A stretch of 27,081 bases of DNA from a virus. Positions 333-24,541 of the stretch are shown in pieces. The first letter of the stretch is position 1; each line of letters starts with the position of its first letter. Below the pieces are notes generated by a model. It made no database searches, was not told where the DNA came from, and saw only the letters and a program-made list of their open reading frames with translations. Made by a program: the position numbers and the translations under genes. The stretch is from positions 1 to 27,081 of the IMG/VR virus record IMGVR_UViG_3300042883_000292. One strand, given 5' to 3'.

Positions 333-360
333 CAAATATACTATAAATTATTTAATCAAA
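333..360 (-). promoter_or_regulatory. Possible leftward Bacteroidetes-type promoter
   Basis: On the minus strand TTTG (360-357), 16 nt, then TATATTTG (340-333) resembles the Bacteroidetes promoter (TTG ... TAnnTTTG). It lies immediately after the stop codon at 361 and would start transcription about 12-15 nt before the hairpin at 314-279. It may be a chance match in AT-rich DNA. Confidence 0.25.
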
Positions 361-5232: not shown

Positions 5233-6998
5233 TATCGTGTTATTGTTCTTGGTGGTTGTGGGTTGCTTGGTAAAAATCCGTAGTTATCCATATCAACAGG
5301 ACGTTTTGCAACAAGTTCAGGATTAACAACTAAATAACCACTAATTGCTGCTTTTAATTGTCCTATTTTCTTTGCTTCGTTTATATTAATTCCTTTTCCT
5401 AAAGGAACAACATACACTTGTTTGTTCCAACGGTGGTAACAATTTCCACCACCTTTATAGAGCCAAATTGAATAGGTTGCTGCGCCTTTTGCTCCCCAAC
5501 CTTCGTTTACTGCAACATCACCCATTGCAACAATATCTTCTTTGCGATAAACTTTATTTGCACTTATCATTTGAGTACAAAATGGTCTTGTTTTTTCATC
5601 TATTGCACCTACATATTTATAACGTACAATAAATTTTAATTGCTTAATTATCTTATCTTGTGCGCTTGTTATGTTTGGTCTTGCTTCTCCTGTACTAACC
5701 AAGTTTACAATTTTACTTAATAAACTTTGTTTTGGCTCTTTGCTTAACAATTCGTTTTCTTCTTCGTCTTTTTCGTAGTCAACTTCTTTTTCGTCTATTA
5801 ATATCCATTCAGGGTTTACGTCTTCGCCTAAATCAATTAACGGATTTGTATGTGCGCTTAATTCTGTGCCTGTTTCTTCTGCAACTTGTTCAGCGTTTTG
5901 CGTGTTTTCCAAGTCTGTAAACTCTAAAGGTTGTAACGTTTTAAAGAATAACTTTAATGCAACTCCGTTAAATGCTAATATGCTATCAAAAGCGTCTAAT
6001 ATTTCTTCTTGGAATGGTCGTATAACCATATTGTCAAATAATATACTTGAATTTTTTAGTTCTTCTGCGTTACTTGAAAAGCCATTTGTTGAAGCAACAC
6101 CAAATAATAACGGACTTGTAATATTGTGTCCTAACATAATCTTGCGTAAACATTCTTCGCTTAAATACGTGTAGTGTTCTGGAGCATCGTTTAAAGGAAT
6201 GTCTTCAACCGTTGTTTTGCTTTCTGCGTTGTTATTAAAAGCTACAATAACTTTTTGTCCACGACTTCCTGTTAACTTGTCAAGTACTTTGTTTGAAATA
6301 ATACTTTGCTGTTCGTCTGTTGGAACTCCGTTATTAAAATTTACAACTTTAGTACCGCTAAATCCGTTTTGTACTTCGTTAATTAAATAGTCTGCAATTT
6401 CTTCTTCTAAAAGTGTATAAGGTACTGCACCTTGATAGTCCGGATAAGCATAATATTTCATTCCAACCGAATAAGGTTTAGAAAATAATATTTCTATTTT
6501 TTCTTTTCCATAACCAAAAGCACTAAATCTAATTGGCGCAAACTTTTTAGTATCGTCCCAATTGTCCGAATAGTAATAACCTGTTATTTGTCCGTCTTTG
6601 TCGCATTTTTCAGCTCGTAAAAGATTAACCGGTATGTGATATGCTTTTAATATTTTGTCGTGTTTGTCATTATAATGTACTTGAATAGCAAATTGTCCAA
6701 ACATTTTCCTATCAAGAACCATTTTACGTACGTCTTCTTTGTGAAATAAAGACATCATTTGTGCGTACTCATTCGGCTTTTTATTAGCGTCCAATGCACT
6801 TAAACCTTTTCCGTAAATTAATCGTGCTACGTTGTTTATAATAGCGTTGTTCGTTGTTGAATTGCTATATCTATCAATTAAGAATTGAAAGTATTGGTCT
6901 CCGTCTTCAGTTAAAAAGTCAACCCAATTTTCTCGGTTTGTTTCCGATACCACAGGTGACGTATAAGCCGACAAATTTAAAACGTGTAAATTATTCAT
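5232..6998 (-). CDS. Portal protein with MuF-like C-terminal domain
   Basis: A 588-residue protein. Residues about 25-350 show the portal pattern: N-N-V-A-R-L-I-Y-G-K-G (56-65), beta-rich wing, and the long stem/clip helices with L-L-F-G-V near 297-301 and the substrate-like S-S-N-A-E-E-L-K-N-S. Residues 360-440 are acidic and flexible. Residues about 450-530 form a separate domain: R-Y-K-Y-V-G-A-I-D-E-K-T-R-P-F-C474, then G-G-G-N-C520-Y-H522-R-W, resembling the Cys/His core of Mu gpF (MuF) minor head proteins. Portal and MuF are usually separate adjacent genes, so this looks like a fusion. The protein forms the DNA-entry ring of the capsid. It overlaps the gene before it by 8 nt. The portal call is strong; the MuF call is moderate. 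Confidence 0.8.
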   Translation of the reverse strand: MNNLHVLNLSAYTSPVVSETNRENWVDFLTEDGDQYFQFLIDRYSNSTTNNAIINNVARLIYGKGLSALDANKKPNEYAQMMSLFHKEDVRKMVLDRKMFGQFAIQVHYNDKHDKILKAYHIPVNLLRAEKCDKDGQITGYYYSDNWDDTKKFAPIRFSAFGYGKEKIEILFSKPYSVGMKYYAYPDYQGAVPYTLLEEEIADYLINEVQNGFSGTKVVNFNNGVPTDEQQSIISNKVLDKLTGSRGQKVIVAFNNNAESKTTVEDIPLNDAPEHYTYLSEECLRKIMLGHNITSPLLFGVASTNGFSSNAEELKNSSILFDNMVIRPFQEEILDAFDSILAFNGVALKLFFKTLQPLEFTDLENTQNAEQVAEETGTELSAHTNPLIDLGEDVNPEWILIDEKEVDYEKDEEENELLSKEPKQSLLSKIVNLVSTGEARPNITSAQDKIIKQLKFIVRYKYVGAIDEKTRPFCTQMISANKVYRKEDIVAMGDVAVNEGWGAKGAATYSIWLYKGGGNCYHRWNKQVYVVPLGKGININEAKKIGQLKAAISGYLVVNPELVAKRPVDMDNYGFLPSNPQPPRTITR

Positions 6999-7323
6999 AT
7001 ACTATAAAATCATTTGTTGTTGAATTAGAAACGTATTGGTTATTGTTAACCGAAAATGTAACTAAACTTTGTGCCGTGCAAAATACTCGGTCTTTATATA
7101 TAATGGTTGTGCCTACTCTTAAAACTAAATTGTAAAAATGTCCTTCTACTAAACCAAAAGTTGCTGTAATCGTGTTTATGTAGTCTCCTGTTGTGCTTGA
7201 AGTAATCGCTACCGCTGTTGTTACGTTTGTTTGTTCGTCTGTTAGTTCCATAACATTAAAGGAATTGTCTCTTGGAATAAAACTAAACGTTTGCGGACTT
7301 CCTGAAGGTGTTAATACTATCAT
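6991..7323 (-). CDS. Small beta-rich phage structural protein, unknown role
   Basis: A 110-residue protein with alternating beta strands (F-Y-N-L-V-L-R-V-G-T-T-I-I-Y-K-D-R-V-F-C-T at 63-83) and Ser/Thr-rich loops. The pattern is common in Bacteroidetes phages next to the portal. It has no signal peptide or membrane helix. It is translated from a leader nearly identical to that of the tail chaperone gene and follows a terminator, so it may start a transcription unit with the portal gene. Head stabilisation or connector are possible roles; not proven. Confidence 0.55.
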   Translation of the reverse strand: MIVLTPSGSPQTFSFIPRDNSFNVMELTDEQTNVTTAVAITSSTTGDYINTITATFGLVEGHFYNLVLRVGTTIIYKDRVFCTAQSLVTFSVNNNQYVSNSTTNDFIVYE

Positions 7324-7354
7324 ATTAGTATAATTAAATATTCGTGTTTTTGTT
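7321..7354 (-). promoter_or_regulatory. Leader sequence shared with the 19039 gene
   Basis: The 34 nt ending in the ATG at 7323 match the 34 nt ending in the ATG at 19039 at 29 positions, including an identical block AACAAAAACACGAATA. The two downstream genes are unrelated, so the similarity belongs to the leader. It may be a translation-initiation element in a host without Shine-Dalgarno use, or part of a phage late promoter. Confidence 0.45.
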
Positions 7355-7366
7355 CTTTTTTTAAGA

Positions 7367-7399
7367 CAAAAAAAAAGCCGAACTGTGAAGAACGGCTTT
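7367..7399 (-). terminator. Intrinsic terminator after the tail tube gene
   Basis: On the minus strand AAAGCCG (7399-7393) pairs with CGGCTTT (7380-7374) around a 12-nt loop, followed by a run of six more T to about 7368. It lies 20 nt downstream of the stop of the 186-residue gene and upstream of the next gene's leader. It would reduce transcription between the capsid/tail tube genes and the portal group, consistent with high expression of the former. Confidence 0.8.
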
Positions 7400-8007: not shown

Positions 8008-8035
8008 AATAAAGCGCAGTTGCCTACGCTTTTTA
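8008..8035 (-). terminator. Weak hairpin terminator after the major capsid gene
   Basis: On the minus strand AAAGCG (8032-8027) pairs with CGCTTT (8016-8011) around a 10-nt loop, followed by ATTTTATT. The stem is short and the T tract interrupted, so it may be a partial terminator or an mRNA 3'-end stabiliser. It lies within the 63-nt gap between the capsid and tail tube genes. Confidence 0.45.
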
Positions 8036-10055: not shown

Positions 10056-10403
10056 TTAAATATCGTCTCCACCTTTTATTTGTAAAGAATTTAACGCACT
10101 AACTACTTTAACATATTCAGTTAATTTTGCTTTTACTCTTGTTGAATTTACAGGTGATTGTACACCAATTTCTTTAGAAGCTTTGTCAATTTTATCCGCT
10201 TCTTTTACTGCTAACTCTAAATTTATAACTGCCGATTGCATTGCTCCAATTAATTTTTGATAACTTACTGAAGCACTTTTTCTGTCATTATTTGCTCTAT
10301 CTATTCGAGAATTATAATCGTCAACTAATGCCAATTCAATTTCGTGTTTTGCTAACTCCGTTTTATCGGATAACCTGTTGTAAACGTTTTGTAGTGTGTT
10401 CAT
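10056..10403 (-). CDS. Small helical protein, paralogue-like to the 11116 gene
   Basis: A 115-residue all-helical protein of unknown function. It shares its order of elements with the protein at 10727-11116: an N-terminal helix with L-A-x-H/K-x-I/V-E-L-A-x-x-D-D (residues 18-29), a basic stretch and a second long helix. The leader (AAAATACAACAAA...) resembles that before the gene at 11690. It stands between the protease and scaffold genes, so a head-assembly role is likely by position only. Confidence 0.5.
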   Translation of the reverse strand: MNTLQNVYNRLSDKTELAKHEIELALVDDYNSRIDRANNDRKSASVSYQKLIGAMQSAVINLELAVKEADKIDKASKEIGVQSPVNSTRVKAKLTEYVKVVSALNSLQIKGGDDI

Positions 10404-10445
10404 ATATGTATAATTTAATTGTTTATTATTTGTTGTATTTTTAAA

Positions 10446-10726: not shown

Positions 10727-11116
10727 TTAAAATCCAAATTTTTGTATATTGGTTTGTATTTTGTCTATTACATCTTTTCTTATTTCAATAGCTTGTATTA
10801 CTGATTGAGCCTGTTTGTAAAAATCAGTACTTTTAAAATCTAAACCTAATTCTTTAGCTTGTTTTTCCGATTGAAATAATGGCTCATTAATATTACTTAA
10901 TAAAACATTATATTTAATTTCTATTTCTCTTGCTTTAATAATAACTCCATTTAAAGTAGCTTTAAAATCACTATATAAATTAGCTTCTTGTTTTTTACCT
11001 TCTGCTATTCCTTTTTTTAAATCGTCAATTATAGCCAACTCTACTTTTTGACTTGCTAACTTTGCTTCTACCTTTGCAGTAATGTCTGCAATAATTAATT
11101 CTTTAGTTGTTTTCAT
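10727..11116 (-). CDS. Helical protein of unknown function, related to the 10403 gene
   Basis: A 129-residue all-helical, Lys/Glu-rich protein. Residues 18-32 (E-A-K-L-A-S-Q-K-V-E-L-A-I-I-D) correspond to the matching segment of the protein at 10056-10403, and the subsequent helices have similar spacing, so the two may be diverged duplicates. The start overlaps the end of the XkdF-like gene by 14 nt, which implies coupled translation. Its DNA is more AT-rich than that of its neighbours. A role in prohead assembly is inferred from position. Confidence 0.5.
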   Translation of the reverse strand: MKTTKELIIADITAKVEAKLASQKVELAIIDDLKKGIAEGKKQEANLYSDFKATLNGVIIKAREIEIKYNVLLSNINEPLFQSEKQAKELGLDFKSTDFYKQAQSVIQAIEIRKDVIDKIQTNIQKFGF

Positions 11117-11690
11117 TTTCCGTTATTATTTGTTTTATTTTATCTATTAAAATTTCATCTTCATCTTGTAAACTCATTTCGTATTTGTCCGCAAAATAAC
11201 CTTCAATAGAAAAACCTTTTACTTCTCCAAGTTTAACTTTGTTCCAAATTTCATCGTTGTTTACTTTCATAGAAATAACCCAAGTTCCTTTTGGAAAGTT
11301 AAAACCGTAGTTCGTGCTTTTGTCGTTTTTTCCTTCTGTAATCCAACTTTCGACAACGCTCATTCCGTCTAACTTTTGTTTGTGTTCTAAAGTTGCGTTG
11401 TTCTGGTTGCTATTCATAAAAAACAATTCACTTGCTTTTCTTACAGTTTCTTCAGAAAAGTAAATATAGTATTCTTCGTTCTTGTCGTTCTTGCGGTAAA
11501 TTTGTTTGTTAGGTATTAAAGCCGCACCCATTAATATACGCTTTTCAGCATCTACTTCTTTTAACTCTATTTCGTGTTTTTTTAGTGCTATAAAGTCGCT
11601 TTCGATTGCAGGACTTTCAACAACTGAAACGGCATCAATTCCGCTTGTCTCGTCTTTTTCGTCAATTATTAATTCAACTATTCTATACAT
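11103..11690 (-). CDS. XkdF-like putative prohead protease
   Basis: A 195-residue protein with features of the XkdF family: V-V-E-S-P-A-I-E-S-D-F (23-33), R-I-L-M-G-A-A-L-I-P-N-K-Q-I-Y-R (51-66), Y-Y-I-Y-F-S-E-E-T-V (74-83), T-L-E-H103, V-E-S-W-I (113-117) and P-K-G-T-W-V...K-G-F-S161-I-E-G. XkdF proteins are putative phage serine proteases that process the prohead; H103 with a Ser from the later motifs is the likely catalytic pair. The gene precedes the scaffold-like and capsid genes, as expected. Which Ser is nucleophile is not clear from the sequence alone. Confidence 0.75.
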   Translation of the reverse strand: MYRIVELIIDEKDETSGIDAVSVVESPAIESDFIALKKHEIELKEVDAEKRILMGAALIPNKQIYRKNDKNEEYYIYFSEETVRKASELFFMNSNQNNATLEHKQKLDGMSVVESWITEGKNDKSTNYGFNFPKGTWVISMKVNNDEIWNKVKLGEVKGFSIEGYFADKYEMSLQDEDEILIDKIKQIITENENN

Positions 11691-11728
11691 AATATATTAA
11701 TTAAATTATTGTTTGTTTGTTGTATTTT

Positions 11729-18282: not shown

Positions 18283-18551
18283 TTTCGTAGTTTATTTAAT
18301 TGGCGTTGTTCAATTTCTTGCTTTTGTTTTTCGAAGGTAAGATAGTTGAGACACATAGTAAGTCTATATCCGGTGACTGTGTCAAATCTTGTAATGTCTC
18401 CTTGAGCGAGTGCATAAACTGATTGATACCAACCCCATTGTTTTCCAAATTGAGCTTGTTCACTAAACTCGTTTCCGTCTTCTTGTTCGTCTTTATCTGC
18501 CGTTCCAAATAATTCAGAGTAGCTGTCAATAATTCGCTTCCTAAATTCCAA
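18279..18551 (-). CDS. -1 frame extension of the tail assembly chaperone (GT-like)
   Basis: A 90-codon open frame with no good start of its own: the first codon is TTG within the slippery run, and a TAG closes the frame eight codons before. The product has K-Q-W-G-W-Y-Q-S-V-Y-A-L-A-Q-G-D-I-T-R-F-D (35-55) and C-L-N-Y-L-T-F-E-K-Q-K (67-77), a pattern found in tail assembly chaperones of Bacteroidetes phages. A -1 shift at 18551-18557 would join 163 residues of the upstream frame to these 90 (253 in total). The TGA overlaps the next ATG. In lambda the equivalent fusion (gpGT) recruits tail tube to the tape measure. Confidence 0.75.
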   Translation of the reverse strand: MEFRKRIIDSYSELFGTADKDEQEDGNEFSEQAQFGKQWGWYQSVYALAQGDITRFDTVTGYRLTMCLNYLTFEKQKQEIEQRQLNKLRK

Positions 18552-19039
18552 AAAAAAACACTTGAACTAATCGCTATGTCTACAGGCGTGAACTTCATTA
18601 ACTCGTGCATTTCGTCCATAGGTTTGTAATCAACTATCTCATATTTATCTTTGAACTTCATTTTGATAGGTCGGTACATAACAGCCATTGCCTTATGATA
18701 GTCTTCCCACTTTAATAAACTATTTTCCAAGTCTACGTATTCACCAAAACTTATGTCTTCAAGGTTAGTTATAAATCCAAATTCTTGTGTGCCTATTTTA
18801 AAGGTTGGTTGAAACTTCGGCTTTTCGCTAAACAACTTTGTAAAGTGTGTTATTAATTCGTTTAAACTTGTCAACTTCATTTTTACAATATCCTTTAGTT
18901 CTATTCCACAGAATATTTGAACCATTTTTTGTGCTATAAATTCTTCGTCGTTGCTTCCCTGTTGAACTTTTAAAAAATCTTGGTAGCTTTTTAATGGTAT
19001 TTCACTTAAACTTGTTGGAACGTTTATTTCTAACTTCAT
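18296..19039 (-). CDS. Tail assembly chaperone, unshifted product (G-like)
   Basis: A 247-residue protein. Conserved-looking N-terminal part: M-K-L-E-I-N-V-P, Q-K-M-V-Q-I-F-C (38-45), F-G-F-I-T-N-L-E-D-I-S-F-G-E-Y-V-D-L (87-104) and H-K-A-M-A-V-M-Y-R-P-I (115-125), as in chaperone-like genes of Bacteroidetes phages. The slippery run falls at codons V161-F-F163. The unshifted C-terminus (164-247) stays open for 84 further residues and also appears to have a conserved style (N-N-G-V-G-I-N-Q-F-M-H-S-L-K-E), so two alternative C-termini may be made. It has the leader shared with the 7323 gene. Chaperone identification rests on the frameshift plus sequence pattern. Confidence 0.75.
   Translation of the reverse strand: MKLEINVPTSLSEIPLKSYQDFLKVQQGSNDEEFIAQKMVQIFCGIELKDIVKMKLTSLNELITHFTKLFSEKPKFQPTFKIGTQEFGFITNLEDISFGEYVDLENSLLKWEDYHKAMAVMYRPIKMKFKDKYEIVDYKPMDEMHELMKFTPVDIAISSSVFFWNLGSELLTATLNYLERQIKTNKKTETSLVNKLNLENNGVGINQFMHSLKETLQDLTQSPDIDLLCVSTILPSKNKSKKLNNAN
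18551..18557 (-). other. Programmed -1 ribosomal frameshift site, T TTT TTT
   Basis: The minus strand reads GTT TTT TTT TGG, a run of nine T preceded by G and followed by GG. The heptamer T-TTT-TTT in the zero frame is a classical -1 slippery site: both tRNA-Phe can re-pair after slipping back one base. The next codon in the -1 frame is TTG, and the frame then stays open for 90 codons. I did not find a clear downstream pseudoknot by eye. Confidence 0.8.
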
Positions 19040-19070
19040 ATCTTAATAATTAATTATTCGTGTTTTTGTT
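19037..19070 (-). promoter_or_regulatory. Leader shared with the 7323 gene
   Basis: The 34 nt ending at the ATG at 19039 match the leader at 7321-7354 at 29 of 34 positions, with the identical block AACAAAAACACGAATA. Part of it lies in the last codons of the 54-residue ORF before it, so the element has probably been kept at the DNA or RNA level. Confidence 0.45.
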
Positions 19071-19214
19071 GTGTTCGTTTTTTTGTATGTAATCGTATGC
19101 TTGTTTTAACATATTAATATCTCGGATGTCACGTAAATAAATACGAACCTTTACACCTTTTTTTTGGTAGATGTAAATCTGTACAGCTTGCATCATTATT
19201 TCTAAATCGTTCAT
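19050..19214 (-). CDS. Small protein between TerL and tail chaperone
   Basis: A 54-residue ORF (ATG at 19214 overlapping the terminase TGA, ATGA; stop at 19050). Contains M-M-Q-A-V-Q-I-Y-I-Y-Q-K-K-G-V-K-V-R-I-Y (7-26) and a helical, polar C-terminus. No signal peptide, no recognised family. Coding is supported by translational overlap and by filling the only gap here. Confidence 0.55.
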   Translation of the reverse strand: MNDLEIMMQAVQIYIYQKKGVKVRIYLRDIRDINMLKQAYDYIQKNEHNKNTNN

Positions 19215-20416
19215 CGTATAAAATATAAACCTTTTGTTGGATTGTCTAATTGATATGCTACTGCATACCTTAAAGCATCTATTGCGTGATTGTGTTTGTC
19301 TATTGGTGTTTTTGACTTCTTCTCAAGCCAAGAATAGTTGTTTAGTTCTTTAATTAAATCTATGCTATCTTCTGTAATTACAAGGTCGTAATCCTGTAGT
19401 AAACTTATTCCATAAATTACAGAGTCCGCTCCTTTGATTGTCGGAACTACATTATTACCTAAAGCATTTAGTTCGCTTATTAATCGTGGTTCTGAATTGT
19501 CACCTACTATTAAATCTTTAGCTGCAAACTCTGAATTTAACCTTGCTATTTGGCTTGTTGTTAGTGCCTGTTTATAGTACAATAGTTTAACGTAAATTAT
19601 TTTGTTTGCCTTGTCTATGTTTGTCTTGACTAAAGTTGTAGGGTCTGCACTAAATCCGTAGTCTTGTCCGTACACACTTACACCAACTTCTTTAAAGTCA
19701 CCTATCTTCCAATTGGTAAATATAACTCCTTCAGCTTTATCTAACCAACCGCCAAGTATTGTGTGTTTGTATTTTTCAGGTCTTCGTTCTTTTATGTATT
19801 CAACTTGTTTTAAAAAAGACTCGGATAGGTTTTCGATGTTATCCAAGTACGTTGTGTGTATGTACGTGGTATCGTTTTTTATTACTGTTGTGCCTTGTTC
19901 TATTCCTTTGCTTTCAAAGAACTTGTCGTATATAAAATGTTCTTTTGTCGTAGGATTAAGAATAAGAATAACTCGGTTTTGTTTTGTCTTGTGCCTTATG
20001 GATAAATCTATTTTATCAAAAGTGTCTTCGTCTGTAAGTTCTTCTGCTTCGTCCAATACCCAAGTTGTAACACCTTGTAAAGATTTTAAATTTGCCGTTT
20101 GTGTTCCAGAACTTGTCTTTATTCCTTTGAATATTATTTTGCTTCCTGTTTGTAGGTTTATTATTTCGTCTTTTGTTACGACAAAATCTTGTTCCATTTT
20201 CATTAACTCAATCTTTTCTATAAATTCCGGTATGATTGAAATGGATGCTGAAACCAAAGTGTAACGTGTGAACAAAACAACGTGTCCGCTTTCCTTTGTA
20301 AGTAAAAGTAAGAACGTTGTAACGCTGTAAGACTTGGACGAACCACGACCACCTGTTACAATAAAGTAACGTGAAGAACTTCCTAAATAATTAAACTTCG
20401 GGTTTATAACTATCAA
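19211..20416 (-). CDS. Terminase large subunit
   Basis: A 401-residue packaging motor. Walker A G22-G-R-G-S-S-K28-S, Walker B W-V-L-D122-E123-A-E-E, and a C-terminal RNase H-like nuclease with acidic residues D252 (Q-D-Y-G-F), D306 (V-G-D-N) and D380 (H-A-I-D-A-L-R-Y). The layout matches the PBSX-type phage terminase (terminase_3) family. It cuts concatemers and drives DNA into the prohead with ATP. Start ATG at 20416 lies inside the end of the small subunit gene (26-nt overlap). All key residues are present. Confidence 0.95.
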   Translation of the reverse strand: MIVINPKFNYLGSSSRYFIVTGGRGSSKSYSVTTFLLLLTKESGHVVLFTRYTLVSASISIIPEFIEKIELMKMEQDFVVTKDEIINLQTGSKIIFKGIKTSSGTQTANLKSLQGVTTWVLDEAEELTDEDTFDKIDLSIRHKTKQNRVILILNPTTKEHFIYDKFFESKGIEQGTTVIKNDTTYIHTTYLDNIENLSESFLKQVEYIKERRPEKYKHTILGGWLDKAEGVIFTNWKIGDFKEVGVSVYGQDYGFSADPTTLVKTNIDKANKIIYVKLLYYKQALTTSQIARLNSEFAAKDLIVGDNSEPRLISELNALGNNVVPTIKGADSVIYGISLLQDYDLVITEDSIDLIKELNNYSWLEKKSKTPIDKHNHAIDALRYAVAYQLDNPTKGLYFIR

Positions 20417-20735
20417 TTCGGAATAGGTCTTTTACATCAAAGTCTGAAACACTTAAATTTGTATCTGTAGTTTGTTTAGGCGCACCATAGCAACTATCCA
20501 TAAGTGCTTTGTATGCGTTTACGTCTCCTTTATTTGCCTTTAATAACATAGCCAAAGTAATTGCTTGTTCTTGCGTTAAAGTTTCTTGTTCGCCTGTTAA
20601 AACGTTCTTTTGACTTGACGCAAATTCTAATAACTCCTTTACAATAGTGCTGCGGTTTCTACTTCCTTTTGGTCTTCCATTTGGATTAGATACTTCGCCT
20701 TTTTTAAAGTTTTTTAAGTTTTGTTCGTTAGCCAT
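20391..20735 (-). CDS. Terminase small subunit
   Basis: A 114-residue protein with an N-terminal F-K-K-G-E-V-S-N-P-N-G-R-P-K-G-S-R-N-R-S-T (10-30), a DNA-binding arm seen in DUF5681-type terminase small subunits, then helices (T-I-V-K-E-L-L-E-F; T-Q-E-Q-A-I-T-L-A-M-L-L-K-A; A-Y-K-A-L-M-D-S-C-Y-G). The position just before the large subunit, with coding overlap, supports a role in recognising packaging sites. Size is usual. Confidence 0.85.
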   Translation of the reverse strand: MANEQNLKNFKKGEVSNPNGRPKGSRNRSTIVKELLEFASSQKNVLTGEQETLTQEQAITLAMLLKANKGDVNAYKALMDSCYGAPKQTTDTNLSVSDFDVKDLFRIDSYKPEV

Positions 20736-20756: not shown

Positions 20757-21131
20757 TTAACTATTTTCTTCGGTAGTTTCTTCAGGTGTGTACTCGTTGT
20801 AAATTACTCTTAACTTACTTACTAAATCTCTCAAACAACTTGAACAGGTGCTGAACGTTAATTTTTGGTTTAGTACTCTGTTATTAATTGCTATTAGACT
20901 TGTTTGTTCATCGCTTGTTAGTGTGTTCGTGTTTTGTTTGAAGTAAGTGTCTAACGTGTTAAACTCGTCTTCTGTTAAACACAACGGTTTTGCATACGGA
21001 AATAGTTTGTTTAACTTTTCTTTTCTCTCATCACATCCGCAGTCTTCACCTGCAATAAATTTAACAAGTTTATCAATTCCTGTTGCTTCTGTAATCTTTG
21101 CGATTGTATCGCCTAATCCTTTACTTTTCAT
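20757..21131 (-). CDS. Conserved Cys-containing phage protein near terminase
   Basis: A 124-residue protein. N-terminus G-L-G-D-T-I-A-K-I-T-E-A-T-G-I-D-K-L-V-K, then E-D-C-G-C-D-E-R-K-E-K-L-N-K-L-F-P-Y (30-47) and C-x-x-C (S-T-C-S-S-C, 94-99). I recall this pattern in Bacteroidetes phages next to terminase. The four Cys could form a small zinc site. No catalytic motif is visible. It overlaps the sigma-like gene by ATGA (21131-21128), so the two are co-expressed. A head-tail or packaging accessory is possible, not shown. Confidence 0.6.
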   Translation of the reverse strand: MKSKGLGDTIAKITEATGIDKLVKFIAGEDCGCDERKEKLNKLFPYAKPLCLTEDEFNTLDTYFKQNTNTLTSDEQTSLIAINNRVLNQKLTFSTCSSCLRDLVSKLRVIYNEYTPEETTEENS

Positions 21132-21667
21132 TTTTTCTTTTTTATTAGTTCGTAATCTTGGTTTATAAAATCTTGGTAGTCTTCACCTACGTTATTTTTA
21201 ATTCGTTTTTTACAAGTCTTTACAGTGTTAAATATACTTGTTACACTTATGTTAGTTTCACTACTTATTTGTCGTAAACTTTTATTCGTGTTTTTGTATA
21301 ACTCAAATAATTGTTTGTCGTACCAATGCCAACTATCACATTCTAAATCTACGTTATTTAACAGGTCGTTGTAAGCTTCGTTTTCTTCGGTGTTGTTTTC
21401 TTCTGCTAAATTATAAACATCGTCTAAAGGTATAAATTTAATTTTGTTGTTTTTGTTCACGTGCTGAAGGAAAGTATTCTTGAGAGCCAACCACATATAT
21501 CCTTTACTGATTTGTCCGTCTTTAAATAGTTTTTCTTCGCTGCTCCATTTCATTAACATAATATAAGTTTCTTGGACTATGTCTTCGGCAAAGAAATATT
21601 CGCCAAATTGATTAACCATTTTGACCCATTCGTTGTGATGCTTTGCAACTTTAGTTAACCATTCCAA
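21128..21667 (-). CDS. Phage sigma-70-family (ECF-like) factor
   Basis: A 179-residue protein. Residues about 10-75 fit sigma region 2, with A-E-D-I-V-Q-E-T-Y-I-M-L-M-K-W at 27-41, the typical D-x-V-Q-E-T helix. Residues about 115-157 fit region 4, a helix-turn-helix (L-R-Q-I-S-S-E-T-N-I-S-V-T-S-I-F-N-T-V-K). The linker (80-110) is acidic, as in two-domain ECF sigma factors. It would recruit host RNA polymerase to phage promoters and is placed just ahead of the packaging/late genes, behind a terminator and a host-type promoter. That suggests a switch to late transcription. Target promoters are unknown. Confidence 0.75.
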   Translation of the reverse strand: MEWLTKVAKHHNEWVKMVNQFGEYFFAEDIVQETYIMLMKWSSEEKLFKDGQISKGYMWLALKNTFLQHVNKNNKIKFIPLDDVYNLAEENNTEENEAYNDLLNNVDLECDSWHWYDKQLFELYKNTNKSLRQISSETNISVTSIFNTVKTCKKRIKNNVGEDYQDFINQDYELIKKKK

Positions 21668-21689
21668 TTTATATTGTTTAGATATTAAG

Positions 21690-21723
21690 CAAATGTATGA
21701 TTAATTTTTCAACAATAAACAAA
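21690..21723 (-). promoter_or_regulatory. Bacteroidetes-type promoter for the sigma-like gene
   Basis: On the minus strand TACATTTG (21697-21690) fits TAnnTTTG exactly. A TTTG lies 22 nt upstream (21723-21720). The start would be near 21683, about 15 nt before the ATG at 21667. It directly follows the terminator at 21754-21782, so it restarts transcription between early and late blocks. Confidence 0.7.
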
Positions 21724-21753
21724 CGAATTTATTAACAATTAGTTGTGTAGAAC

Positions 21754-21782
21754 AAAAAAAGCGCAAACAATTAAGTCTGCGC
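21754..21782 (-). terminator. Intrinsic terminator of the early operon
   Basis: On the minus strand GCGCA (21782-21778) pairs with TGCGC (21765-21761) around a 12-nt loop, then seven T (21760-21754). It lies 23 nt downstream of the stop at 21805 and separates the early operon from the sigma-like gene promoter. Confidence 0.75.
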
Positions 21783-21804: not shown

Positions 21805-21996
21805 TTATCTATTTACGAAGTAATCTATTTTTTTAAGCGTTGAAAGTGAAACATCCTTGCCTTCTAAAAAGTTTGTAAGTTGGAAGAAGTGAAATTTACT
21901 TCCGTTACTTTGTATTTCTTTTACTATGCTGTTTCGTTTTTTAAAAGCTAAAATCTTTTTTAATTCCTTGCGTAGCTGCTCGTCTTGTATGTGCAT
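21805..21996 (-). CDS. Small putative DNA-binding protein
   Basis: A 63-residue protein that ends F-Q-L-T-N-F-L-E-G-K-D-V-S-L-S-T-L-K-K-I-D-Y-F-V (39-61 region), a pattern like the second half of small XRE/Cro helix-turn-helix proteins, in which F-L-x-G-K-x-V-S-x-x-T-L-K-K lies at helix 4. The N-terminal half is basic and helical. It is the last gene of the early operon, immediately before a terminator. It may be a transcriptional regulator. Alternatives include a small accessory protein without DNA binding. Confidence 0.5.
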   Translation of the reverse strand: MHIQDEQLRKELKKILAFKKRNSIVKEIQSNGSKFHFFQLTNFLEGKDVSLSTLKKIDYFVNR

Positions 21997-23324: not shown

Positions 23325-23970
23325 AATAAATTCTTGCTTCTTCTACTTTGTTTTGTATTTCCCAAATTACAGTTTCGTCTCGTTCTATTTTAAAGACTTT
23401 TACTTTTGTTTGTTCCGGTAAATGGTCAAAGTTATGTTTCTTTTCTACGTATTCTCTAATTTCTGCGTCTTCGTCAATTTTAAATTGTTTCCAATGCTCC
23501 CTGCGTATTTCGTCTTCAACTATTTCTAACGGAGTATTGACTAAACAATAACAAAGTAATGCTTCGGCTTTTCCTGTTAGCCACATATAACCCTGTAATT
23601 GATAGTAATAATCTTTTGTAGGTATTTCATCTTCAAAGAACGGAAACGTGTGTGCTTCGTAACTACATTTAATGTCTAAAAGAATTTCATTCGTGTTTAC
23701 GTCGGGTGTTCCTGTAATCCAATCGTTGTTAAAATGTTCTTCGTTCTTAAATATAAATCCTAAACCTAAAACATCGTTTACCAAACTAATTGCTTCGTCT
23801 TCGCATTGTAAACCTTTGTCCGTGTATCTACTTGAAAATTCTTTTTTAATTCCGTACTTGTGTTCTAAAACAAGTTCTTGGATGTAACTCTTTGCTGTTT
23901 TGCTTAATGTCTCGGTCTTGGTGCGTGGAGCGGTCATTAACCGCCCCAATGCTGAACAACGTATTTTCAT
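23299..23970 (-). CDS. YqaJ-type viral recombinase/exonuclease
   Basis: A 223-residue PD-(D/E)XK nuclease. Motif residues: E57 (Q-C-E-D-E-A), G-T-P-D90-V, L-L-D99-I-K101-C and Q124-L-Q126-G-Y-M-W (the typical Q-x-x-x-Y-M element). This matches YqaJ/lambda exonuclease-like enzymes, which resect double-stranded DNA and hand single strands to an annealing protein. The ERF-type gene directly upstream (overlap 23967-23970) is that partner. Together they would serve recombination and concatemer formation. All catalytic positions are present. Confidence 0.85.
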   Translation of the reverse strand: MKIRCSALGRLMTAPRTKTETLSKTAKSYIQELVLEHKYGIKKEFSSRYTDKGLQCEDEAISLVNDVLGLGFIFKNEEHFNNDWITGTPDVNTNEILLDIKCSYEAHTFPFFEDEIPTKDYYYQLQGYMWLTGKAEALLCYCLVNTPLEIVEDEIRREHWKQFKIDEDAEIREYVEKKHNFDHLPEQTKVKVFKIERDETVIWEIQNKVEEARIYFNSLIETI

Positions 23971-24482
23971 ACTTCTAACGTTTTTAATTGTGCAGGTGTT
24001 AAACTAAACTTTGTTGTTAGTTCTTCAACTGTATATTCTCCTTTGCTAATTGCGTCAATAGCTTTTTGAAACCTTGCGTTGTCTATTGTAGCTTTTTTAG
24101 GTTCGTGTTTTACTTGTTCTCCAGAAGCGTCGGTGTCTTTGTCCGTAACTAAACCAAGCATCGAACTTAATGCGTAACGTCTTAAGTAAGTTATTGCACT
24201 TCCTAAAACTTGGAACTCGTTCATTCCTTTTAAAATTACTCCTTGTGGTATGTCAATTTTACTTTCAATACTTTCAGCACTTTCAACGTGAAATAAACAG
24301 GTTGCTATTTGTGTGCCGTTAATTAGTTGAGTGAACCCTAATCCGTGTTTTTTTAGTAGCGGGTTAATTACTTCAAAGATTTTCGGTAAATCTGCGTAAG
24401 TGTAACCGTAACCTTGTGTTGCTTTGTGAATAACAGGGACTTCTTGTTGGAACGCTGCTAAACTTTTAAATAAATGTTTCAT
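23967..24482 (-). CDS. ERF-family single-strand annealing protein
   Basis: A 171-residue protein with ERF signatures: Y-G-Y-T-Y-A-D-L-P-K-I (25-35), H-G-L-G-F-T-Q-L, then V-L-G-S-A-I-T-Y-L-R-R-Y-A-L-S-S-M-L-G-L (92-111) and D-K-D-T-D (114-118). ERF proteins bind ssDNA and anneal complementary strands in phage recombination. The C-terminus (about 125-171) is charged and may bind the exonuclease. It is the first gene behind the promoter at 24512-24541 and forms a pair with the YqaJ-type nuclease. Confidence 0.88.
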   Translation of the reverse strand: MKHLFKSLAAFQQEVPVIHKATQGYGYTYADLPKIFEVINPLLKKHGLGFTQLINGTQIATCLFHVESAESIESKIDIPQGVILKGMNEFQVLGSAITYLRRYALSSMLGLVTDKDTDASGEQVKHEPKKATIDNARFQKAIDAISKGEYTVEELTTKFSLTPAQLKTLEV

Positions 24483-24511: not shown

Positions 24512-24541
24512 CAAATATAAATAAAGTTATTTAATAAACAA
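24512..24541 (-). promoter_or_regulatory. Bacteroidetes-type promoter for recombination genes
   Basis: On the minus strand TTG (24541-24539), 19 nt, then TATATTTG (24519-24512), an exact fit to TTG-N17-23-TAnnTTTG. It lies in the 59-nt gap right after the ninG-like stop, with an expected start near 24505 and ATG at 24482. It would express ERF and downstream genes by host polymerase. Confidence 0.75.

Follow-up and report, generated by a model that had tools for sequence, protein, structure and literature searches.

ECF sigma factors use two-element promoters with an AAC-type -35 element, which for E. coli sigma-E reads GGAACTT. These factors, also classified as group IV, contain regions 2 and 4 only (PMC6372665, excerpt). 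Late sigma factors of phages are already known from 7-11 and phiEco32. The sigma factor of the Salmonella phage 7-11, SaPh711_gp47, has bipartite late promoters of the form GTAAtg-16-aCTA; it uses the host core, and the early genes are served by the host primary sigma (PMC8948821, excerpt). The phiEco32 sigma factor gp36 serves middle and late genes and works with a second small phage protein, gp79, at promoters made of a single element, tAATGTAtA (PMC8948821, PMC4331800, both in excerpt). In both phages, transcription starts 6-9 nt from the promoter element (PMC8948821, excerpt). In F. johnsoniae, the start lies 4-5 nt downstream of the TAnnTTTG -7 element, and 87% of the mRNAs with a probable promoter have leaders longer than 10 nt (PMC6847099, excerpt).

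The locus described here resembles that of 7-11 in combining a small phage sigma factor with bipartite candidate promoters before late genes, and 7-11 offers a strong precedent, by analogy, for a phage sigma that reads late promoters. Different from 7-11 as excerpted, the motif is AACAA-N16-nTT(A/T)T, the phages are those of Bacteroidota, the predicted -10 element lies about 10 nt from the ATG, and the sigma gene has a companion encoding a four-cysteine protein. The two elements of this family also differ from the single element described for phiEco32. At the level of sequence, the locus has the features of the phiEco32/7-11 type, namely a phage-encoded sigma and, ahead of late genes, candidate promoters that depart from the host consensus. 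With E. coli sigma-E and other ECF factors it shares two domains, a region 4 fitting the structure 2h27, and the AAC of the predicted -35 element; unlike them, it is phage-borne and no membrane anti-sigma was seen. The probable late sigma of these Bacteroidota phages represents a new form, and a literature search of partial coverage returned no paper on the late promoters of these phages.

The window, meaning the whole analysed stretch of DNA, is a virus record of 27,081 bases whose convincing genes all lie on the minus strand (Table 1). Past the early block, the order on this strand is a hairpin with U-run, TACATTTG, the sigma gene, the four-cysteine gene, the DUF5681 gene, TerL, and the head and tail genes, which include protease, capsid-like, and portal proteins. 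A megablast of the window against phages gave no match. A related capsid protein is encoded on two MAG contigs labelled Bacteroidia and Bacteroidetes (2/48 pattern matches), which is consistent with such a host but no proof of it. The window probably belongs to a phage of Bacteroidota that carries its own sigma factor, with four DNA signals recognisable in its genome and in relatives at which this factor probably turns on the late genes.

Table 1. Positions of the genes and signals of the window discussed in the text.
Feature	Position	Strand	Remarks
Host-type promoter TATATTTG	24512..24519	-	before early ERF gene 23967-24482
Early block	last gene 21805-21996	-	helicase loader, NinG, ERF, exonuclease, SSB
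Intrinsic terminator	21784-21759, U-run to ~21752	-	10-pair stem, then TTTTTTTG; terminator scan
Host-type promoter, -7 element TACATTTG	21697-21690	-	start predicted near 21685; consensus from PMC6847099 (excerpt)
Phage ECF-type sigma factor gene	21667-21128	-	TTG start, 179 aa; NCBIfam profiles and structure
Four-cysteine protein (CGC...CxxC)	20757-21131	-	124 aa; directly after sigma; phrog_32048
Probable terminase small subunit, DUF5681 protein	20391..20735	-	PF18932; role assigned from position
Terminase large subunit (TerL)	19211..20416	-	PF04466, PF17288
Candidate late promoter AACAAAA-N-TTATTAAG	19039..19070	-	before gene 18296-19039; best placement in window
Candidate late promoter	11690..11721	-	before protease gene; second-best placement
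Head maturation protease	11103-11690	-	PF14550
Candidate late promoter	10403..10434	-	before gene 10056-10403; score 7.9, TT-to-ATG 10
Hairpin with U-rich tail	8011..8032	-	after major capsid gene; fold -12.7 kcal/mol, z -4.53
Intrinsic terminator	7374..7399	-	immediately upstream of candidate late promoter at gene 7323; folds at -11.2 kcal/mol (z -3.74)
Candidate late promoter	7323..7354	-	before gene 6991-7323, upstream of portal; score 11.0
Host-type promoter-like TATATTTG	333..340	-	gap before gene 3-179; 0 orthologs of gene 179 for comparison

We then inspected the junction between the early block and the sigma gene, where the initial annotation had placed an early-to-late switch. The switch is real as a sequence arrangement. 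The U-tract hairpin said to end the early operon was confirmed as a G+C-rich stem followed by a U-run; its RNA folds at -14.8 kcal/mol (z -4.19), and none of 200 shuffles folded equally well. The terminator scan of the whole window gave no excess (3 found vs 5.5 expected). Similarly, bare TAnnTTTG shows no enrichment across the window (47 occurrences vs 51 expected), so the weight of TACATTTG comes from its position and conservation. Scans of the window for sigma-70 promoters (TTGACA/TATAAT) showed no excess, with 41 hits against 46.7 expected, and such promoters were set aside. The leader of the sigma mRNA, claimed to be about 15 nt, comes to about 17 nt from the predicted start when the spacing excerpted for F. 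johnsoniae is applied (PMC6847099).

A tblastn search of annotated phages with the window sigma gave no match, so relatives were taken from IMG/VR. Among 115 stretches with close sigma relatives, 80 were kept and the upstream DNA of 79 was read. TACATTTG occupies the promoter position in 77/79 of these near relatives, which supports, by comparison, the claim that sigma is expressed from a host-type promoter. The other two (L071 and L073) have TAAATTTG, begin with ATG where the remaining 77 begin with TTG, and lack the terminator. For a wider count, 54 non-redundant sigma loci having 200 nt upstream were used. TAnnTTTG is found within 110 nt upstream in 30 of them (10.6% in shuffles), a terminator within 200 nt in 23 (1.1% in shuffles), and both together in 19. 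The terminator of the window is hence not universal in the family. Ahead of sigma, terminator and promoter recur with stems that differ clearly in sequence between clades; hence some branches of the family have kept the function of the arrangement. In other members, the sigma gene appears to lie inside an operon without such a promoter.

Three variations were seen around this junction. The DNA just upstream of the terminator varies in L006, L010, L034, L048, L052, and L072, with terminator, promoter, and sigma unchanged, and the boundary upstream of 21784 is likely a recombination boundary. Eight of the 79 relatives (L020, L044, L046, L049, L055, L060, L061, and L070) carry a repeat-like insert, ACCAACCTTTCAA...GGTT, in the interval from the terminator to the sigma promoter. 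An inverted repeat, TTGTT...AACAA, surrounds the sigma promoter at 21715-21674(-), is longer in L071/L195 (TTGTTTAAA...TTTAAACAA), and is possibly an operator.

The sigma-70-like nature of the gene, also proposed initially, gives a weak match in Pfam and PHROGs when the window protein is searched alone (phrog_1740 at 1.7e-6), and becomes clear with NCBIfam profiles and structure. The protein matches TIGR02937 (sigma70-ECF) over residues 10-158 at 3e-8, with 33.5 bits, below the NCBI naming cut-off of 42.9. In the family alignment A2, each of the 48 proteins matches both TIGR02937 and TIGR02985, the Bacteroidetes ECF profile. The AF2 model has a mean pLDDT of 88 and a pTM of 0.47, which suggests two well-formed domains in an uncertain relative arrangement. 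The top PDB matches of the model in Foldseek are ECF sigma factors. Superposed on region 4 of E. coli sigma-E on -35 DNA (2h27), the C-terminal domain has an rmsd of 1.7 over 69 residues (Z 9.3). For the N-terminal domain and region 2 on -10 DNA (4lup), the rmsd is 3.3 over 76 residues (Z 8.7); helical domains fairly commonly reach Z values of 8-10. The solved ECF chains that match best share about 10-17% identity with the protein. The closest viral structure models include annotated phage ECF sigma factors, and the model also matches the sigma of phage GAP52 (E 0.011), which is grouped with 7-11 (PMC8948821, excerpt). Judged from profiles and model, with 179 aa and both domains fitting ECF structures, the gene is predicted to encode a two-domain ECF-type sigma factor with regions 2 and 4 only. 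A relative of this sigma is encoded in at least 560 stretches, among the 600 matches listed. On one contig (IMGVR_UViG_3300044639_000820, 47,246 bases, combining L014 and L051), two sigma genes with 98% and 96% identity to that of the window lie about 30 kb from each other; this contig represents either two joined genomes or a tandem copy.

The late motif was learned from leaders of gene 7323 in other clades, with the window clade excluded. After redundancy removal, 22 of 41 leaders were kept, cut to 46 nt plus the ATG, and subjected to an expectation-maximisation search. A search on uncut leaders had returned only the terminator, and the leaders were trimmed afterwards. The learned motif is AACAA-N16-nTT(A/T)T, or (A/T)ACAA-N16-nTT(A/T)T in general form. 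The distance from AAC (or TAC) to TT is 18 nt in 20/22 training leaders and 17 nt in the other two (L143 and L151). In the window, the gap before gene 7323 holds the terminator and then AACAAAAACACGAATATTTAATTATACTAAT immediately ahead of the ATG; diverged relatives have a hairpin of other sequence at the same position, again followed by AAAACAA...TT....

The window was scanned with the motif on both strands (54,100 placements). The two best placements end at the starts of genes 19039 and 11690; genes 7323 and 10403 rank 5 and 19. At all four sites, the TT lies exactly 10 nt ahead of the ATG. With the threshold set at 7.9, the lowest score among these four sites, 21 placements pass and 4/44 gene starts carry one at the 10-nt offset, for which the binomial probability is 3e-9, or 7e-7 without gene 7323. 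Over 300 rounds with shuffled leaders, the mean at this offset was 0.04 and no round gave more than 1. The excess is weaker at any offset, where 5/44 window leaders pass and shuffles average 1.19 and reach up to 5. The third-best placement, 24559-24528(-), is before the early ERF gene, near its host-type promoter. In being A+T-rich, the motif resembles the A-rich leaders of Bacteroidota. These results agree with the initial annotation in several respects. It had noted that the late gaps lack TAnnTTTG, and none is found on their coding strand; it had suggested late promoters of a different consensus, for which the motif before 19039, 11690, 10403, and 7323 is a candidate; and it had pointed to a leader shared by 7354-7321 and 19070-19037, which agrees at 29/34 positions (by eye) and appears to form part of the motif. 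The common motif upstream of late starts that it proposed to look for was thus found, at four window sites and again in relatives. At the far end of the window, 340-274(-), TATATTTG is followed by a very stable hairpin with U-run (z -6.86) ahead of gene 3-179, possibly an attenuated early leader.

Recurrence was counted by ortholog group in non-redundant leaders (<90% identity) at a score of at least 10. The motif occurs in 29/32 leaders of gene 7323 (the training gene), 30/42 of 19039, 18/37 of 11690, 20/49 of 10032, 3/8 of 10403, and 4/39 of 21131, and almost nowhere else. TAnnTTTG runs opposite, being present for the sigma gene in 28/56, for the ERF gene in 19/40, and in no leader or a single one for each of these late groups. 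Pooling 19039, 11690, and 10032, which were called late only after their motif counts were known, gives 68/128 leaders with the motif vs 2.7% of shuffles. The 11 early groups have it in 6/338 leaders. Loci having both sigma and a 19039 ortholog score at least 8 in 81/94 cases, and several of the remaining 13 show a 17-nt spacer. Individual genomes reuse their own version of the motif at several late genes, either a GTTATA-type with ATG at +10 (e.g. L182) or a TTTTTAAA-type with ATG at +15 to +18 (e.g. L189, L196). In 104 sites, the candidate AAC-type -35 has A and C at 100% in positions 1 and 2; as these sites were selected by score, the conservation figures of the 94-locus table and of the 104 sites are partly built in. 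Four control phage stretches of 6-13 kb each contain no motif site; they comprise the TerL side of two Bacteroidota phages with related TerL and no such sigma seen (L083, L084), plus two other phages.

A related arrangement is present in the cultured Nonlabens phage P12024L (L082), whose genome is complete. Its gp35, annotated as sigma-70 region 2, likewise precedes a four-cysteine gene and the small and large terminase genes. Five copies of AAACAA-N12..16-CGTTAATA, a pattern written after looking at the P12024L sequence, each lie on the coding strand upstream of an ATG and ahead of late genes, as compared with 0 in each of 100 shuffles. Unlike the window, its sigma has only 23% identity over 74 residues, the -10 element is CGTTAATA, and the spacer is mostly 19. 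CGTT at -10 together with AAC at -35 is reminiscent of bacterial ECF promoters. As P12024L is in culture, its motif can be checked by one RNA experiment.

The computations show the fold and a set of elements that are conserved and recur; from these we infer recognition of the motif by the phage sigma, as well as the timing, the start sites, and host polymerase as the partner. Very probably, the phage sigma, which is ECF-like, directs host polymerase to late promoters that have AAC at -35 and a -10 near the start codon, which would yield almost leaderless mRNAs. The early genes would be transcribed at the beginning of infection, by host RNA polymerase carrying the primary sigma of Bacteroidota. 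The same primary sigma would act on TACATTTG to drive the sigma, four-cysteine, and terminase genes, with the terminator shielding these genes from the early block. Next, the phage sigma would join the host core polymerase and start transcription at (A/T)ACAA-N16-nTT(A/T)T before genes 19039, 11690, 10403, and 7323. Since the -10 part is very close to the ATG, most late mRNAs would have almost no leader: a start 4-5 nt (F. johnsoniae) or 6-9 nt (7-11, phiEco32) past it is predicted at or a few nt from the ATG. Near-leaderless late mRNAs would be unusual, given that most F. johnsoniae mRNAs in the excerpted data have leaders longer than 10 nt. The scheme gives a common group of small phages a complete and testable transcription plan, stating which late genes are transcribed, from where, and by what.

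The best surviving alternative, which we consider unlikely, is that the motif does act as a late promoter, but one that is served by an alternative (ECF) sigma of the host or depends on another phage factor, with the phage sigma serving otherwise. Contact of the phage sigma with the motif is itself deduced, Bacteroidota have ECF factors of their own in the profile family to which the phage sigma belongs (TIGR02985), and the four-cysteine gene as a constant companion of sigma could be the true activator. Against this, sigma is encoded in 18/22 records, the four without it being 14.5-24.6 kb long, and promoter differences track sigma differences beyond those of a downstream protein (partial r 0.31, 0/2000 permutations). 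This test covered 33 non-redundant genomes at a score of at least 6, among which shared descent is not fully removed and relatives are not independent. Sigma and motif also occur together even in the distant P12024L, and the control stretches, though short, have no site.

Somewhat less probable still is a scheme in which read-through from the sigma promoter accounts for most late transcription, with the internal sites being minor. The single coding strand with its few gaps fits such read-through, and the initial annotation had the sigma gene head the packaging and structural genes. This holds for the four-cysteine, TerS-like, and TerL genes; the DUF5681 gene in particular lies behind the sigma promoter. 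The structural genes, however, have at least four candidate late-type promoters themselves, which recur in relatives, and a strong terminator separates genes 7979 and 7323. In one clade, sigma is located several kb from TerL, away from the packaging genes, which speaks against one operon running from sigma through the structural genes. It is very improbable that the element is no promoter and serves instead as an A-rich, Kozak-like leader for translation initiation or at the RNA level: it does lie immediately ahead of start codons, and F. johnsoniae uses A-rich initiation regions (PMC6847099, excerpt), but its internal spacing is fixed and its separation from the ATG ranges between 10 and >30 nt across the 104 sites (exactly 10 in 49), it is missing ahead of most genes (19/846 leaders of groups outside 19039, 11690, 10032, 7323, and 10403 have it), and the terminator directly ahead of it at gene 7323 in diverged clades calls for a new transcription start.

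The sigma gene is followed on the same strand by the four-cysteine gene in 152/152 loci where sigma has at least 700 nt of sequence behind it, 149 within -60 to 700 nt, some of these loci overlapping one another. The encoded protein has the pattern GLGDT...DCGC..RK..LN...C..C. The window protein matched no Pfam family, no PDB fold at E 0.001 or better, and in PHROGs only families of unknown function. In the clade with sigma distant from TerL, the two genes stay together, indicating that they are linked to each other rather than to packaging. Hence, the four-cysteine protein may be a partner of sigma. Its N-terminal half occurs as a separate gene of 56-62 codons in two unrelated phages, where no annotated sigma gene is adjacent, so the protein is not tied to sigma everywhere. 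It is a candidate anti-sigma or co-activator, or neither, and a functional likeness to gp79 is a guess by analogy. We tentatively raise the possibility of a two-gene late-switch module, in which the ECF-like sigma would act with the four-cysteine protein as anti-sigma or co-activator and the late mRNAs would be leaderless. If true, leaderless late mRNAs in a mostly leadered phylum would mean that late translation may switch together with transcription. Sigma-promoter pairs differing by clade would give orthogonal expression parts for Bacteroidota. In the clade with sigma far from TerL (L183-L186, L188, and L190), an HTH gene lies upstream of TerL, and its HTH presumably resembles DnaA domain IV.
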